A stretch of DNA of 32,739 nucleotides from Alphaproteobacteria bacterium bin52 (GTDB taxonomy: Bacteria > Pseudomonadota > Alphaproteobacteria > Thalassobaculales > Thalassobaculaceae). Numbering within the stretch: position 1 is the stretch's first letter; every line of letters begins with the position of its first letter. Location: positions 1 through 32,739 of the forward strand of contig MPMT01000050.1 of assembly GCA_002238645.1 (NCBI GenBank), given 5' to 3'. Of the stretch, positions 7,172 through 17,346 are shown piece by piece. A program made the translations under genes and the position numbers. The notes below the pieces were generated by a model, which made no database searches, was not told the origin of the DNA, and saw only the letters and a program-made list of their open reading frames with translations.

Positions 7172-7705
7172 TCAGTCCTGGTCAAGCCTCGCGGTGAGCC
7201 GTTTCAGCGCCGTGACGGTCTCGTCGCTCAGATGGTGTTCCAGCCCTTCCGCATCAGCTTCGGCGGTTTCCGGCGCGATGCCGAGCGCGTGCAGGAAGTC
7301 GAGCACCACCCGGTGCCTGGCCCGGGACCACTCGGCGAGTTCCCGTCCCCTGCGGGTCAGGAAGATGGCGCGGTAGGGCCGGGAGTCGACGTAGCCGTCC
7401 TTCTGCAACCTCTGGACTGTCGCGTTGACGGTCGGGGGCGTGACACCGAGCAGGGCGGCGAGGTCGACGAGCCGCGCCTCGCCGTGGTGCTCGATCAGGT
7501 CAGAGATCAGTTCGACGTAGTCCTCGGCGATCTCGACGCTGTGGTCGTCGCGAACCCGCTGGAACAGGGCTGCACGCCGTCCGGAATCGGCGAGGTCGAT
7601 CACGGGTGTCCGCGAACCCTCGTCCGGCGAACCGCTGCGGCCCCGTTTCACCAAGGCCGCACGTCCGGGAGATCCGACGACTTGACGCACATTGTTTGCA
7701 TGCAC
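7172..7705 (-). CDS. mntR: Manganese-responsive DtxR-family regulator MntR
   Basis: A 177-residue DtxR/MntR repressor: winged helix (about residues 57-115) followed by a dimerisation domain. The match is to the E. coli-type MntR. Metal-binding positions known from MntR are kept: Asp and Glu in AEDYVELI, His in RARHRVV, and the Glu, Glu and His of DAEGLEHHLS. It should sense intracellular Mn2+ and repress the divergent importer operon. The longest frame starts with GTG at 7705. The first 50 or so residues are poorly conserved, so a later GTG (for example Val35, before IDLADSG) is possible. A TATAAA sequence on the minus strand at 7719-7714 would place transcription almost at the GTG, giving a leaderless or very short leader. 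Confidence 0.85.
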   Translation of the reverse strand: MHANNVRQVVGSPGRAALVKRGRSGSPDEGSRTPVIDLADSGRRAALFQRVRDDHSVEIAEDYVELISDLIEHHGEARLVDLAALLGVTPPTVNATVQRLQKDGYVDSRPYRAIFLTRRGRELAEWSRARHRVVLDFLHALGIAPETAEADAEGLEHHLSDETVTALKRLTARLDQD

Positions 7706-7785: not shown

Positions 7786-8784
7786 ATGAGCCTACACCAC
7801 ATTCACACCCGACGTCGAACGTGCATGGACCGGCCTCAGGGCCCGGCATCATGGCGGGTTGCCGCGTGGGTCTGCCTGTGGCTCCTGGCCGGTGCGGTTC
7901 CGGCGCAGGCCGGACTGTCTGTCGTCGTCACGATTGCGCAGATCGGCGAACCGCTGCGCGAGATCGTCGGCGACCATGGCGAGGTGATCAACCTGGTGGG
8001 AGAGGGGGTCGATCCGCACCTCTATCGGCCCACGCGGTCCGACATGGCGCGCCTGGTTCGGGCGGACGCCGTCTTCTGGAACGGACTGAGGCTCGAGGCG
8101 AAGATGGAAGAGGTCCTGCGGGACCTGGCGGCCAGCCGGCCGTCAGTGGCGCTGGCCGAGGAACTGCCGCCGCGGCGTATTCGCGGCGCCGCGCTGCCTG
8201 ATCCGCATATCTGGATGAACCCGGACCTGTGGCGTGAGGCGCTTGCCCGGGCTGTGACCGTGCTTTCCTCTCTCTCGCCCGAGGCTGCCGACGAGTTTTC
8301 TGATAGGGCGGAGCGCTATTTCGCCAGGCTCGAGGAGCTTGAGGCGCGGGTCGAGACCATGACCCGGACCGTGCCGGCCCGTCAGCGGGTGCTGGTCACC
8401 GCCCACGACGCCTTCGGATATTTCGGTGACCGGTTCGGTTTCGAGGTGGTCGGGATTCAGGGTCTCAGTACCGACAGCGAGACCGGGCTGCGGCGCATCG
8501 AGCAGATCGTCGACATGCTCGTCAGCCGCGATATCCCGGCGGTTTTCGCCGAGACTTCCGTATCGGAGCGTGATGTCCGGGCCCTGATCGAGGGTGCTGC
8601 TGCGGCGGGGCACCGGGTGCGATTCGGCGGTCGGTTGTTCTCCGATGCCATGGGCGCGCCGCACAGCCCCGAGGGCACCTATGTCGGCATGATCGAACAC
8701 AATGCCAGAACCATTGTCGGCGCCCTGGGCGGCTCCGTTTCGCGGCGACACCTTGCAGGGGGAACGGTTAATGGTCGGTTCTGA
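7786..8784 (+). CDS. Metal ABC transporter substrate-binding protein (TroA/ZnuA-like)
   Basis: A 332-residue periplasmic metal-binding lipocalin-unrelated 'cluster A-I' binding protein. A signal peptide with hydrophobic core VCLWLLAGAV ends at AQA (about residue 42). The four ligands align with TroA: His78 in VDPHLY, His141 in PDPHIWMN, His207 in AHDAFGYF and Asp287 in RLFSDAMG. The third ligand is His, as in TroA, rather than the Glu of PsaA. No histidine-rich ZnuA loop is present, and MntR control suggests manganese (possibly also zinc). The ATG at 7825 gives a more compact signal peptide and is an alternative start; neither has a strong ribosome binding site. It is the first gene of a four-gene operon and overlaps the ATPase gene by 14 bases. 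Confidence 0.9.
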   Translation: MSLHHIHTRRRTCMDRPQGPASWRVAAWVCLWLLAGAVPAQAGLSVVVTIAQIGEPLREIVGDHGEVINLVGEGVDPHLYRPTRSDMARLVRADAVFWNGLRLEAKMEEVLRDLAASRPSVALAEELPPRRIRGAALPDPHIWMNPDLWREALARAVTVLSSLSPEAADEFSDRAERYFARLEELEARVETMTRTVPARQRVLVTAHDAFGYFGDRFGFEVVGIQGLSTDSETGLRRIEQIVDMLVSRDIPAVFAETSVSERDVRALIEGAAAAGHRVRFGGRLFSDAMGAPHSPEGTYVGMIEHNARTIVGALGGSVSRRHLAGGTVNGRF

Positions 8785-9559
8785 AGCGGTACCGCCGGCC
8801 GGACGCGCGCTGTCGACAACCGATCTGCCCCTCTACGTGCAGGGACTTAACGTTGCCTACGGTTCACGCCCGGTGTTGTGGAACGTCGAGTTCAGTGCCG
8901 CGGCCGGTTCCCTTACCGCGGTAGTCGGCCCGAACGGTGCCGGAAAGTCGACACTGCTGCGGGCGGTTATCGGGCAGGTTCCGCGGCTTTCGGGACACGT
9001 CCGGGTGTTCGGCAGGCAGTTCGAGCCCGGCGACGGAACCGTCGCCTACGTCCCGCAGCAGGGCGTCGTCGACTGGGAGTTTCCCGCCTCGGCCCTCGAC
9101 GTGGTCGCGATGGGCCTTTACGGCGACATCGGCTGGTTCCGACCGGTGCGCCGCAGGCATCGGACCCGGGCCCTGGAGATGCTCGACCGGGTCGGTCTCG
9201 CGGACAGCGCCGGGCGCCAGATCGGCCAGTTGTCGGGCGGGCAGCGCCAGAGGATGTTCGTTGCGCGTGCCCTGGCCCAGGATGCGGAGATCTACCTGCT
9301 CGACGAGCCCCTGGCCGGGGTCGATGCCGTTACCGAGACGCGGATCATGACGATCCTGCGTGAACTTGCGGATGCGGGCCGGACAATCGTCGTGGTCCAT
9401 CACGACCTCGAGACCCTGCAGGAGTACTTTACCCACGCACTGCTGCTCAACGGCCGCGTGGTCGAAGCCGGACCTGTGGGGGGCGTCGTCGCCTCCGCGT
9501 CCCTCAGCCGGACCTACGGCAGGTTCGCAACCGCCGGAGCCGGCATCGGCGCCGGTTGA
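8771..9559 (+). CDS. Metal ABC transporter ATP-binding protein
   Basis: A 262-residue ATPase that powers the Mn/Zn importer. It has Walker A GPNGAGKST at residues 53-61, a Q-loop region around YVPQQGVVDWEFP (characteristic of Tro/Mnt/Znu ATPases), ABC signature LSGGQRQRMF from residue 154, Walker B IYLLDEPLAGVD, and an H-loop in VVHHDL. The ATG at 8771 is preceded by GCAGGGGGAAC and overlaps the end of the binding-protein gene by 14 bases. A longer frame from 8702 lies wholly inside that gene and is unlikely. Its stop shares one base with the start of the next permease gene (TGATG). Confidence 0.93.
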   Translation: MVGSEAVPPAGRALSTTDLPLYVQGLNVAYGSRPVLWNVEFSAAAGSLTAVVGPNGAGKSTLLRAVIGQVPRLSGHVRVFGRQFEPGDGTVAYVPQQGVVDWEFPASALDVVAMGLYGDIGWFRPVRRRHRTRALEMLDRVGLADSAGRQIGQLSGGQRQRMFVARALAQDAEIYLLDEPLAGVDAVTETRIMTILRELADAGRTIVVVHHDLETLQEYFTHALLLNGRVVEAGPVGGVVASASLSRTYGRFATAGAGIGAG

Positions 9560-10767
9560 TGGAAGTTTCCGGGCTGGCCGGACTTGCCCGTATCCTGGTT
9601 CTTGACGCCGGTTACAACACGGCGCTGGTCATGGCGGGCTCAACGGTGTTGGGCGTTGCCGCCGGTGTGATCGGCTGTTTCACCATGCTGCGACGCCGGT
9701 CGATGATCAGCGACGCTATCAGCCACGCCACCCTGCCTGGCATCGCGCTGGCCTTCCTGTTCGGCCTGGCGGTTTTCGGATCCGGACGCAATATCGTGCT
9801 GCTGTCGACAGGTGCTGCAGCAACCGGGGTCCTCGGAATCCTGGCCGTGCACTGGATCAGGGAGAGGACGCGTCTCGGCGAGGATGCGGCGATCGGCACT
9901 GTACTGAGCGGTTTCTTCGGCGCCGGCGTGGTGCTGATGAGCCATGTCCAGACCCTGCCTGCTGCCGGCCAGGCCGGTCTCGACGGATTCCTGCTCGGTG
10001 CGACTGCGACCATGACCGCCGACGAGGCCGTGGCGATCACGGCGGCGGCACTCCTGGTCATGACGGTAACCCTGGCGTTGCTGCGGCCGTTCGCCGCCGT
10101 GTGTCTCGACGAACAACATGCGTCAGTCCTGGGACTCGGGGTCGTAACGATCGACATGGTAATGACCGCGCTGCTGCTCCTCGTCGTGGTGACCGGGCTG
10201 AAGACCGTCGGCCTCATCCTGGTGATCGCACTTGTGATCATTCCCCCGGTCACGGCGCGGTTCTGGACCGATCGACTGGGCGTGATGCTGGTAATCTCGG
10301 GCCTTGTCGGGGGAGGCGCCTGTTATGCAGGCAGTGCCGCATCCGCATTCTGGCCCGACATGCCGACCGGAGCGGTCATCGTCATCATGGCGGCGACAAT
10401 CTGCGCGGTCTCGGTTGCAGTGGCTCCGACGCGCGGCGTGATCTCGCGTCTGGTGCACGCGCGACGTTTTCGCCGTCGCGTCATCTTCCGCCAGGCACTG
10501 CTTGCCTGCTCGCGTGGTGAGCGGCCGGAAGGTGCCGCGCGGCGCATGCTGCGCTCGGCCGGCGTGCTCGGTGCCGATGCGGAACTCACGCTGCGAGGGC
10601 ATGCGCAGGCCGAGGCGACCGCCAGTGACTGGCGACTGTGGGAGCTATACCTCGAGTGGTATCCGGAACGGGCGCTCGCGACACCCGAGTGGGGCAGCAG
10701 GCCGATCGGCGAGGTGCTTCCCGCCGACACGGTTGCGGAGCTTCGTGCGAGGGCGGGGTCCGAATGA
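9559..10767 (+). CDS. Metal ABC transporter permease with C-terminal DtxR-like extension
   Basis: A 402-residue ABC-3 family permease, over 100 residues longer than the usual 280-300. Residues 1 to about 295 hold the hydrophobic segments and the conserved TVGLILVIALVIIPPVTAR coupling region. Residues from about 300 to 402 are soluble and resemble a DtxR/MntR C-terminal half: from residue 343 LTLRGHAQAE, then RLWELYL at 359-365 and DTVAELRA near the end. They align with LTRRGRELAE, RVVLDFL and ETVTALKR in the MntR at 7172-7705. MntR metal ligands (His before RVV, and the E..EHH group) are not kept. The ATG shares one base with the ATPase stop, and the gene overlaps the next permease by four bases. 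The tail may give intracellular regulation of transport, which is inference. Confidence 0.9.
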   Translation: MEVSGLAGLARILVLDAGYNTALVMAGSTVLGVAAGVIGCFTMLRRRSMISDAISHATLPGIALAFLFGLAVFGSGRNIVLLSTGAAATGVLGILAVHWIRERTRLGEDAAIGTVLSGFFGAGVVLMSHVQTLPAAGQAGLDGFLLGATATMTADEAVAITAAALLVMTVTLALLRPFAAVCLDEQHASVLGLGVVTIDMVMTALLLLVVVTGLKTVGLILVIALVIIPPVTARFWTDRLGVMLVISGLVGGGACYAGSAASAFWPDMPTGAVIVIMAATICAVSVAVAPTRGVISRLVHARRFRRRVIFRQALLACSRGERPEGAARRMLRSAGVLGADAELTLRGHAQAEATASDWRLWELYLEWYPERALATPEWGSRPIGEVLPADTVAELRARAGSE

Positions 10768-11690
10768 CGCTGCAGGAATTCCTCGTGCTGGACCTTCCGG
10801 CAATCCTGACCGCCGTGCTTGCCTGTGTGGCCTGTTCCCTGGTCGGGAGCTTCCTGGTGTTGCGTCGCCAGGCCCTGCTGGCGGATGCGGTCAGTCATGT
10901 TGTCCTGCCGGGCATCGTCGGTGCCGTACTGGTGACCGGCGCGCTGACCGGTGTCGCGATCATGGCCGGCGCACTGGTGGCGGCCCTCGTGGCCGTGGCA
11001 GCGATTGAACTGTTGCGCGCTTGCGGGCGGCTCGAGGCCGGTGCCGCCATGGGGACGGTGTTCACCACCATGTTCGCCGTCGGCGTCGCGATGCTCGAGT
11101 GGTCCGACGTCGCCGATGGCTACATTGACGCCCGGCATGTCGTATTTGGCAGTCTCGAGACCGTGCTGTGGATGTCGCCCGGAGACCTGACGGCAGTACC
11201 GAGGCAGATCGTCACCCTCGCGGTCGTGCTTGCAATTCTTGCCGGTCTTTGCGGCTGCTTCCACAAGGAACTGGCGGTCTCGACCTTTGATCCGGCACTG
11301 GCCGCCCTGCTGGGATTCCGACCGCGTCTGGTCGCGATTGCACTTGTCACGGCGACCGGGGCGGCCGCCGTGGCGGCGTTCGAGGCGGTCGGCTCGATCC
11401 TGGTGATCGCGATGTTCGTCGGTCCACCGTGTGTCGCGCGCATGCTGACCGACCGCCTGTCCCTGCAGGTCTGGGTTTCGGTCCTGGTCGCCGCTGTCGC
11501 AGCCATAGTCGGATATGCCCTCGCAGCCTTCGGCCCGGGACTTTACGGAAGTCCGAATTCCCTGAATGCGGCCGGCACCATTGCCGTCACGGTCGGGATC
11601 CTGCAGCTGCTGTCGATGCTGTTCGCCCCGCGCTACGGCGCGCTCTTGGCAACCCGGCGGCGTCAGTCAAGCCAGTCGGCCACGAGGTAG
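10764..11690 (+). CDS. Metal ABC transporter permease (second subunit)
   Basis: A 308-residue ABC-3 family permease with eight or nine hydrophobic segments. It contains the family's early LADAVSHVVLPGI motif and FEAVGSILVIAMFVGPPCVAR near the end. It is of standard length, without the extension seen in its partner. The ATG at 10764 overlaps the upstream permease stop (ATGA), so the two are coupled. A binding protein, an ATPase and two different permeases is the arrangement of TroABCD, SitABCD and MntABCD systems, supporting Mn (or Mn/Zn/Fe) import. Its 3' end overlaps by 28 bases the end of a small convergent gene on the other strand. Confidence 0.92.
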   Translation: MTLQEFLVLDLPAILTAVLACVACSLVGSFLVLRRQALLADAVSHVVLPGIVGAVLVTGALTGVAIMAGALVAALVAVAAIELLRACGRLEAGAAMGTVFTTMFAVGVAMLEWSDVADGYIDARHVVFGSLETVLWMSPGDLTAVPRQIVTLAVVLAILAGLCGCFHKELAVSTFDPALAALLGFRPRLVAIALVTATGAAAVAAFEAVGSILVIAMFVGPPCVARMLTDRLSLQVWVSVLVAAVAAIVGYALAAFGPGLYGSPNSLNAAGTIAVTVGILQLLSMLFAPRYGALLATRRRQSSQSATR

Positions 11691-14167: not shown

Positions 14168-15193
14168 TCAGGCGGTTCCGCTGCCGGGTATCGACCCGAA
14201 GGCGGCAAGCACGCGGGCGGCGGCCACCCGGGGCGGCACTCTGTTCTCGGCCACGGCCGGTTCGACCTGATCGAGAATCGCCTTGACCGCCTGGTCGTGA
14301 TCAAGTGCGTGCATCAGCTGGCCGCGGATGGTCGACCACATCCAGCGAACCCGCTGGGCACGCCGCCGTTCGTCGAATTCGCCGGTATCGCCGAGAGTCC
14401 GGCGATGGTCGCCGATCCGCTTCCAGATCGTTTCCAGGCCCGCCCCGGTCAGCGCACTGCAGGTCTCGACCGGCGGGCGCCACGCCGGGCTGGCGGGGGT
14501 GATGATCTCGAGTGCCCGGCGGTATTCCGCGGCCGCGCGCCCCGCCGCCTCGGCCGTGGCGCCGTCGGCCTTGTTGATCGCGATCATGTCAACCAGTTCC
14601 AGCAGGCCCTTCTTGATGCCCTGGAGCTCGTCGCCGGCGCCCGGCAGCATCAGCGCGAGGAAGAAGTCGACCATGCCGGCGACCTCGGTCTCCGACTGCC
14701 CGACCCCGACGGTTTCCACCAGGATCACGTCGAACCCGGCCGCCTCGCAGATGATCATGCTCTCGCGGGTTGCCTGGGCAACCCCGCCGAGCACACCCGA
14801 GGTCGGCGAAGGGCGGATGTAGGCATCGGGATCGCGCCCGAGCTCCTGCATCCTGGTCTTGTCGCCCAGGATGGAGCCGCCGGTCCGCGCGCTGGTCGGA
14901 TCGACGGCGAGCACCGCCACCCGATGCCCCGACCTGGTGAGCATCCGCCCGAAACCCTCGATGAAGGTGCTCTTGCCCACTCCCGGTACCCCGGTTATCC
15001 CGATCCGCGTTGCCGCGCCGGCATCGGGAAGCAGCGTGGTCAGCAGCTGGTCGGCGGTCCGCCGGTGGTCGGGGTGGCGGGACTCGACCAGGGTGATGGC
15101 ACGCGCGAGCGTGGCCCGGTGACCGGCACGGACTGCGTCGGCGAGTGCCCCGACATCCGCAATCGCGATCCGGCGCGCGCCTTCGCCCGGCAT
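14168..15193 (-). CDS. meaB: Methylmalonyl-CoA mutase-associated GTPase MeaB
   Basis: A 341-residue G3E-type P-loop GTPase that protects and reloads methylmalonyl-CoA mutase with its B12 cofactor. Walker A GVPGVGKS is at residues 68-75, the switch region reads ETVGVGQSE, and the NKADG base-recognition motif follows. The usual DPTSARTGGSILGDKTRM block is intact. The gene starts eight bases after the mutase large-subunit stop, in the same operon, fitting its chaperone role. No strong ribosome binding site precedes the ATG, so coupling to the upstream gene is likely. The C-terminal dimerisation arm is present. Confidence 0.95.
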   Translation of the reverse strand: MPGEGARRIAIADVGALADAVRAGHRATLARAITLVESRHPDHRRTADQLLTTLLPDAGAATRIGITGVPGVGKSTFIEGFGRMLTRSGHRVAVLAVDPTSARTGGSILGDKTRMQELGRDPDAYIRPSPTSGVLGGVAQATRESMIICEAAGFDVILVETVGVGQSETEVAGMVDFFLALMLPGAGDELQGIKKGLLELVDMIAINKADGATAEAAGRAAAEYRRALEIITPASPAWRPPVETCSALTGAGLETIWKRIGDHRRTLGDTGEFDERRRAQRVRWMWSTIRGQLMHALDHDQAVKAILDQVEPAVAENRVPPRVAAARVLAAFGSIPGSGTA

Positions 15194-15201
15194 GGCGCCG
15201 G

Positions 15202-17346
15202 CTACCCGGCGTCGACCGCGGCTTCCAGTCGATCGAGGAGGTCGAGCGCCGCCTCGGCGATCATGGTGCCGGGGGGGAAAATCGCGGCGGCTCCGGCCGC
15301 CAGCAGATCGTCGATATCGCCTGGTGGAATCACGCCGCCCACAACGATCATGATGTCGTCGCGCCCGTGTGCGTACAGGTGGTCCCGCAGTTCCGGCACC
15401 AGTGTCAGGTGGCCGGCGGCAAGCGAGCTGGCGCCGATGACGTGGACATCGTTCTCGACCGCCTGGCGGGCTGCTTCTTCCGGGGTCTGGAACAGTGGGC
15501 CGATGTCGACGTCGAAGCCGAGATCGGCGAAGGCGCTGGCGATCACCTTCTGGCCGCGGTCATGGCCATCCTGGCCCATCTTGGCGATCAGGATCCGCGG
15601 TCGCCGGCCCTCCCGGCGCTCGAACCGGGCAGCGCGCTCGAGTACCCGTGCCGCGGCCCCGGCATCGGTGCCGACTTCACCGGCATAGATGCCGGATACG
15701 GTGCGTGTCCGGGCCACGTGCCTTCCCCAGACCTTCTCCAGTGCATCCGACATCTCGCCGACCGTTGCCAGGGTGCGCGACGCCTCGACGGCGAGTTCGA
15801 GCAGGTTGCCGTCGCCGGTCCCGGCGCAGCGGGTGAGGCGGTCGAGTGCGGCGTCCACGGCGGTCGGGTTGCGTTCGGCGCGCAGCCGTTCGAGCTTCTC
15901 GATCTGCTGGCGGCGCACGGCGGCGTTGTCGACCTTCAGTACCTCGATCGGCTCGTCATCGTCGGTCCGGTAGCAATTGACCCCGACGATGGTCTGACGC
16001 CCGGAGTCGATCCGGGCCTGGGTGCGTGCGGCCGACTCCTCGATACGCATCGTGGGAATACCGGCATCAATGGCCTTCGCCATGCCACCGAGTGCCTCTA
16101 CCTCGTCGATGTGGCCGAGGGCGCGGGCAGCGAGATCGTGCGTCAGGCGCTCGACATAGTAGCTGCCGCCCCAGGGATCGATCACCGAGCAGATGCCGGT
16201 TTCCTGCTGGATCAGCAGCTGGGTATTCCGGGCGATGCGCGCGCTGAAGTCGGTCGGCAGCGCGAGCGCCTCGTCGAGTGCGTTGGTATGCAGTGACTGG
16301 GTATGTCCGTGGGTCGCGGCGAGAGCCTCGACGCAGGTCCGGGTCACGTTGTTGAACACGTCCTGGGCAGTGAGGCTCCAGCCGCTGGTCTGGCAGTGGG
16401 TGCGCAGCGACAGCGACCGCGCGTCCTGCGGATCGAACTGCTTCATCAGCCGTGCCCACAGCAGCCGCGCCGCACGCATCTTGGCGATTTCCATGAAGAA
16501 GTTCATGCCGATCGCCCAGAAGAACGAGAGGCGCGGGGCGAAGGAGTCGATGTCGAGGCCCGCGTCGACCCCGGCCCTGACGTACTCGATGCCGTCGGCG
16601 AGCGTGTAGGCGAGTTCCAGGTCGGCGGTCGCCCCGGCCTCCTGCATGTGGTAGCCGGAAATGCTGATCGAGTTGAACCGCGGCATCCGCGCCGAGGTGT
16701 GGGCAAAGATGTCGGAAATGATCCGCATCGATGCCGCCGGAGGATAGATGTAGGTGTTTCTGACCATGAACTCCTTGAGGATGTCGTTCTGGATGGTCCC
16801 GGCCAGTGCCCGTCTCGGCACACCCTGTTCCTCGGCGGCGTGGATGTAGTGCGCGAGCACGGGCAGGACCGCACCGTTCATGGTCATCGAGACGCTCATG
16901 CGGTCGAGCGGAATACCGTCGAACAGTTCGCGCATGTCGAGTATGGAATCGATCGCGACACCGGCCATGCCGACGTCGCCGGCGACCCGCGGGTGATCGG
17001 AGTCGTAGCCGCGGTGGGTTGCGAGGTCGAACGCGACCGACAGCCCCTTCTGGCCGGCCGCCAGGTTGCGCCGGTAGAACGCGTTCGAGTCGGCAGCCGT
17101 CGAGTAGCCCGCGTACTGGCGAATGGTCCAGGGCCGAGTCGCGTACATGGTCGGGTAGGGGCCGCGCAGGAAAGGGGCGATGCCGGGCCAGCCACCCAGG
17201 AAATCGAGCCCCCGGGTGTCGTCCTCGGTGTACAGCGGCTTGAGTTCGATTCCTTCCGGCGTGGTCCACCGGCTGTTTCCGGCAGGTGGCGGACCCGGTT
17301 CGGGGCCGTGAAGGGAGAGGGTGCTGAAGTCGGGCAGGATGCTCAT
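15202..17346 (-). CDS. scpA: Methylmalonyl-CoA mutase, large (catalytic) subunit
   Basis: A 714-residue B12-dependent mutase interconverting (R)-methylmalonyl-CoA and succinyl-CoA. Residues 1 to about 560 form the substrate barrel, with the active-site tyrosine in [10 protein letters not shown], the arginine of KEFMVRNTY and the histidine of SGYHMQEAG. The C-terminal cobalamin domain carries DGHDRG at about 593-598, whose histidine (about 595) coordinates cobalt in the base-off mode. Length is standard. It overlaps the small-subunit gene by four bases (ATGA) and is followed by meaB, forming a complete mutase operon. No propionyl-CoA carboxylase or methylmalonyl-CoA epimerase gene is in the window. 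Confidence 0.97.

Follow-up and report, generated by a model that had tools for sequence, protein, structure and literature searches.

A degenerate C-terminal tail of apparent DtxR/MntR-type repressor origin on a metal importer permease in Alphaproteobacteria

For the Mn/Zn-type ABC importer encoded in the window (the whole analyzed stretch of 32,739 nucleotides from Alphaproteobacteria bacterium bin52), the question is what the residues behind the membrane domain of its first permease are, and what they may do. The open reading frame is real, with an ATG at 9559, 402 encoded residues, and a stop codon at 10765–10767 that overlaps the start codon of the second permease (ATG at 10764). The ABC-3 family (PF00950) matches residues 24–288 (190.4 bits against a cut-off of 20.1, E = 5.6e-56), which leaves a C-terminal tail of 114 residues (10423–10764). 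These results confirm the initial annotation, which had noted about 100 extra residues, and extend them slightly beyond the 10480–10767 it proposed. Solved Mn/Zn ABC permeases of the same family (PDB 7kyp, 7kyo, and 9oko) match residues 27–293 or 29–285; their chains have only 260–290 residues, and the match stops short of the tail or just where it begins.

The genes around this permease (Table 1) form a standard metal importer set, with a divergent mntR, a substrate-binding protein, an ATPase (which we take to be one also from its sequence motifs), and two permeases. The same layout is present in Azospirillum ramasamyi, for which the PLSDB table names "mntR" and labels both permeases as "metal ABC transporter permease." Because the second permease has no such tail, one tail is expected per two-permease transporter. 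A scan for inverted repeats around the gap between mntR and mntA found a single 75% palindrome, just inside the substrate-binding protein ORF. Elsewhere in the window (14168–17346, minus strand), there are two adjacent, ordinary-looking ORFs, presumably a methylmalonyl-CoA mutase-like gene beside one for a MeaB/ArgK-like GTPase.

Table 1. Coordinates of the importer genes and of the parts of the first-permease tail in the window.
Feature	Coordinates	Strand	Basis or remark
mntR, divergent; ligand segments ARHRVV and EGLEHH intact	7172..7705	-	PF01325, PF02742, and PRK11050 (NCBIfam MntR), all over cut-off
Substrate-binding protein of the importer	7786..8784	+	ORF as listed, true start may be slightly inside; operon position as in Azospirillum
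ATPase subunit	8771..9559	+	Approximate start (the listed ORF begins at 8702); same place in the annotated operon of Azospirillum
First permease of the Mn/Zn-type ABC importer, ABC-3 plus apparently DtxR-derived tail	9559..10767	+	402 aa; PF00950
C-terminal tail, residues 289–402 (114 residues), apparently from a DtxR/MntR-type repressor	10423..10764	+	Profile comparisons, alignment
Putative DNA-binding-half remnant, residues 289–335; retains the long first helix, with a reading head shorter by about 20 residues	10423..10563	+	
Putative wing remnant and dimerization-like half, residues 336–401	10564..10761	+	Alignment, omega 0.11
Second permease (308 aa); has no such tail	10764..11690	+	

Searches with the window tail alone returned no Pfam match (including PF02742) and no NCBIfam match. 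BLASTP against the window MntR gave only a chance match in the wrong register (E = 0.99), so these two sequences by themselves show no likeness beyond chance. A phmmer search of PDB sequences with the tail gave one meaningless match (E = 1.5), and a profile of 12 tails found no match in the same sequences. Because the tail by itself shows no relation, orthologs were collected; profiles and an ortholog are needed to see it.

Permease matches were found in 18 of 36 genomes from the order (E = 1e-20), in 33 of 385 genomes sampled from the class (1e-30), and, when the L018 permease described below served as the query, in 21 of 398 genomes of a phylum sample (1e-40). The set compared here has 51 permeases: the Azospirillum homolog and 50 ORFs from the genome searches with BLASTP E-values of 1e-40 or better to the window permease. 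Weaker matches (L019–L026, L051–L054, and L106), duplicate fetches, and four class-search matches without a locus were left out of these 50, and a distant Phycisphaerales permease (L007) was not used. Among the excluded loci inspected, L106 has a tail with only a winged helix-turn-helix (wHTH), and the others stop no more than about 50 residues past the last membrane helix.

Within the 51 permeases, a degenerate tail is present in 39, a tail with intact ligands in one (L018), and a wHTH-only tail in one (L049). The degenerate form is the rule in the sampled lineage and not peculiar to the window. The other 10 orthologs have no tail, which indicates that it is dispensable for this transporter type. 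The tree brings the degenerate tails together (6 changes, where shuffling gives a mean of 11.0); its backbone is left open and so speaks neither for nor against a single origin of the loss, and the only intact-ligand tail found, that of L018, sits on this open backbone.

Profile–profile comparisons provide the evidence on descent. When 10 window-like tails (a set of 12 minus the two short ones of L042 and L044, which remain among the 39) were compared with 30 MntR sequences (34 matches minus duplicates and one misread row), the score was 23.6 (E = 0.0019), with a maximum of 18.9 for 100 column-shuffled MntR profiles. This alignment pairs LTLRGHAQAE with LTRRGRELAE, RLWELYL with RVVLDFL, and DTVAELRA with ETVTALKR, and thus recovers the register that the initial annotation had proposed and that pairwise BLAST missed. 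The L018 permease, an ortholog from a genome of the same family (G030), has a tail that passes PF02742 (37.5 bits, cut-off 27; E = 2.3e-9) and shows H/D/E/H in the ligand columns. It is matched by the 10 window-like tails with a score of 41.5 (E = 8.1e-7; maximum of 100 shuffles, 18.2), and it in turn matches the MntR profile (E = 7.8e-6). Because the profile scores exceed those of all 100 shuffles, both directly and via L018, the tail is, on these alignments, DtxR-derived. The window tail shares common descent with DtxR/MntR repressors, as judged from sequence, despite having no PF02742 match of its own. The similarity of the tail to the DtxR family that the initial annotation expected is therefore detectable, at the level of profiles and through an L018 tail that lies over the family cut-off.

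The strength of this similarity varies across the group. All 39 degenerate tails together match L018 (score 37.8, shuffled maximum 21.6), and their score against MntR is 19.5, which is not convincing. The Rhodobacter-like tails alone have no match above the shuffles to MntR or L018 (score of 15.9 against L018, shuffled maximum 20.4), and their membership in the group rests only on alignment with the other tails. In a whole-genome scan, PF02742 weakly matched one degenerate tail (genome G380; 16.1 bits, E = 0.06). A separate Pfam scan of 12 tails gave a PF02742 match for one of them (E = 0.015), as the top family of that scan.

Structure prediction is compatible with this origin and is not evidence for it. 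The tail model, built from two near-identical sequences, has a pLDDT of 66.7 and is all-helical, with predicted helices at 2–29, 34–44, 50–61, 66–78, 80–85, 94–97, and 100–112 (numbered from residue 290), as a reduced DtxR layout may have. Foldseek and VIA-align with this model gave a best Z of 4.2, to unrelated sensor domains, and no PDB match was trusted; no DtxR chain is among the matches shown for the 20 chains compared, a result that excludes nothing. The full-length model (pLDDT 42) is unusable.

What the tail has lost can be read from the alignment. The C-terminal metal ligands of PF02742 are, as we take them, His77, Glu99, Glu102, and His103 (B. subtilis MntR numbering). At the H/D/E/H columns of L018, the window has W358, R381, G384, and E385 (MAFFT alignment, not structure), such that the replacement of MntR ligands claimed in the initial annotation is borne out. 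The survey of related permeases for ligand conservation that it had proposed found the full four-ligand set in none of the 39 tails, with the columns taken from the MAFFT alignment, in which L042 and L044 are gapped at three of the four. The DNA-reading head is also shortened in all 39 tails: about 20 residues are missing, and the winged helix-turn-helix is incomplete. The span from helix 1 to the LT..G motif is 24–38 residues (median 34) in these tails versus 60 in L018; the corresponding helix 1-to-wing span has a median of 55 in 29 of the 30 MntRs, a comparison that is approximate given a slightly different marker residue. With the C-terminal ligands and part of the reading head lost, metal-dependent repression in the known way would no longer be possible. 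The proposal that the tail is a copy of the dimerization half of MntR holds in part, in that this half is present, but the tail also contains the first helix and the wing of the DNA-binding half.

Other positions are well kept. Residues 336–401 of the window permease include LT..G (T344 and G347), RLWELYL, and, at the position of the ligand helix, WGSRPI..VLP.D.V.EL. Across the 39 tails, T344, G347, and G293 are invariant, followed by D390 (37), W361 (36), I383 (34), P382 (32), and D357 (32). Acidic residues are frequent at the old ligand columns (E in 25 of 39 at H77, and E or D in 27 of 39 at E102 and in 19 of 39 at H103). For the window copy, "metal-blind" appears to be a fair reading at the classical site; for the whole group, these acidic residues leave it unproven. 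They also suggest that a rebuilt acidic site might let the tail sense a metal or some other ligand and gate the transporter directly, an idea that the conservation of D357 and D390 would fit. Considering that the window copy itself has W/R/G/E at the old columns, such a sensor seems unlikely.

The tail is under purifying selection. Between the window and its close homolog L006, Nei–Gojobori omega is 0.13 in the permease core, 0.59 for residues 289–335, and 0.11 for residues 336–401, and in 12 other close tailed pairs omega is 0.00–0.27 in both tail halves; because the stretches are short and some pairs have synonymous distances above 1, the estimates show constraint and their values are imprecise. 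These patterns bear on the explanation that the tail is a dying remnant without function, for which truncation has yet to happen. Loss of the ligands and reading head, the 10 tail-less orthologs, and the higher omega of residues 289–335 in the window pair all agree with decay. However, the low omega of the dimerization-like half speaks against a dead remnant, as do the constraint on both halves in the other 12 pairs and the invariance of T344 and G347 in tails from many families. We consider a decaying remnant improbable.

Another explanation starts from the pairing with MntR suggested in the initial annotation: by binding the adjoining MntR, the tail would retain or titrate that repressor at the membrane, such that transporter abundance would be coupled to repression. 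The dimerization-like half is indeed the better conserved one in the window pair; mntR lies divergently beside the operon in the window, and where a tailed case has an MntR (22 cases), the distance is within about 5 kb in 20. Proteins over the PF02742 cut-off occur in 64 of the 385 class genomes and in 10 of 28 selected genomes. A protein of this kind accompanies 22 of the 39 tailed permeases, counting the annotated mntR of Azospirillum, and is absent for the other 17; MntR presence does not differ from that in tail-less cases (4 of 10; Fisher p = 0.48). In one family (f23), the tail is present in all 11 sampled genomes, whereas PF02742 matches nothing in any of them at E = 0.1. The genome with the intact fused tail (G030) also has a separate MntR adjoining the operon. 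With 17 tails in genomes that lack a protein over the PF02742 cut-off, pairing with an adjoining MntR cannot be the general role, and tail state shows no simple link to a neighboring MntR; as an account of the tail, pairing now seems quite unlikely. An internal gate, the other role that the initial annotation suggested, or a scaffold may apply instead. The novelty had been sought in the degenerate ligands and the neighboring regulator: the ligand loss stands, but it is common to many relatives, and the regulator has no simple link to the state of the tail.

Regulatory neighbors and fusions were also noted at other loci. G030 has two further PF02742 proteins (C33:192114-192278 and C8:9252-9425), one of them next to the operon. 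In Paracoccus aestuarii, where the permease belongs to another subtype, the operon neighbor is a Fur-family regulator; a plasmid of this species (L120:2965-5058) contains one annotated ORF of 697 aa that seems to be two ABC-3 permeases end to end. Two loci from one genus (L073 in G321 and L079 in G398, minus strand) have an apparent MntR–peptidase fusion, in which the MntR frame (PF01325 and PF02742) runs on, uninterrupted by a stop codon, into a prolyl-oligopeptidase-type partner (PF02897 at residues 161–562 of the 647 tested in L073; by eye in L079).

Winged-helix-like tails are also found on other ABC-3 permeases, namely on both permeases of L049, on the first permease of L106 and L122, and on the second permease of the Deinococcus loci L118, L119, and L121. 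These wHTH-only tails keep the winged helix without the dimerization half, and thus the opposite half to that of the window tail; the winged-helix reading was made by eye, with an MntR profile match for two of them. On the Deinococcus plasmids L118 (5040–5384) and L119 (4989–5384), a very small annotated metal-dependent regulator of 114 and 131 aa, respectively, directly follows the second permease gene, with an overlap in L119, and resembles an unfused neighbor of the fusion.

The closest known system is YtgCR of Chlamydia, in which an N-terminal ABC-3 metal permease is joined to a C-terminal DtxR-like domain within a metal importer operon, and in which YtgR (139 aa) keeps its metal ligands, is cleaved from YtgC, and represses its own operon (PMC5599777; PMC6504234). 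The expectation in the initial annotation that permease–DtxR fusions exist is thus supported. The window permease has the same architecture as YtgCR in these accounts, but its tail has neither the ligands nor a full reading head, and a separate intact MntR adjoins its operon. By analogy, the tail may be released by proteolysis and then bind DNA or serve as an antirepressor in the cytoplasm. The shared architecture, a basic linker (RRFRRR) in the window permease, and the cleavage of YtgR from YtgC in these accounts are in favor of release; the short reading head and the loss of the full ligand set in all 39 tails make it very improbable. Permease–repressor fusions were reported from 11 phyla by Thompson et al. 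(2012), as related in PMC5599777. They have the same architecture, and L018 looks like one of them, whereas the degenerate, lineage-wide form is absent from their account in the consulted portions of PMC5599777.

In comparison with MntR itself (DtxR family, PRK11050), the tail shares descent and the order of conserved segments, and differs in its replaced ligands, its shortened reading head, and its fusion to a membrane protein. Given the YtgCR-like architecture and the failure of the defining repressor features, it is classed as a conserved, degenerate permease–repressor fusion. A literature search by title and abstract opening returned no description of degenerate permease-borne DtxR tails in Alphaproteobacteria, which is weak evidence.

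ABC-3 permeases end in the cytoplasm, and the tail would be located there. The best explanation may be that a DtxR/MntR-type repressor was once fused to the permease, as in the permease–repressor fusions, and that the C-terminal metal ligands then disappeared in this lineage, as did part of the DNA-reading head. Selection would keep the tail as a cytoplasmic protein–protein domain of the importer, which may steady or tune the transporter through contact with the ATPase or a neighboring tail. In the absence of a complete reading head and classical ligands, and with non-ligand residues conserved, a role in transporter contact is the simplest reading. From the sequence comparisons, we give about even credence to a retired repressor domain having been reused as a non-DNA-binding cytoplasmic domain that probably steadies or tunes the transporter by contact. 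More tentatively, and with somewhat less confidence, a fused repressor may have become a built-in post-translational regulator of the transporter in one large proteobacterial lineage, keeping the dimer-forming half and dropping the DNA-reading and metal-binding functions.

If true, control of metal uptake would have moved from the transcriptional to the post-translational level. Permease–repressor fusions raise the question of how a membrane-tied repressor works. That the repressor features are lost and the tail is nevertheless selected suggests a second job on the transporter, either original or gained. Annotations that read "metal ABC transporter permease" hide an unnamed conserved domain.
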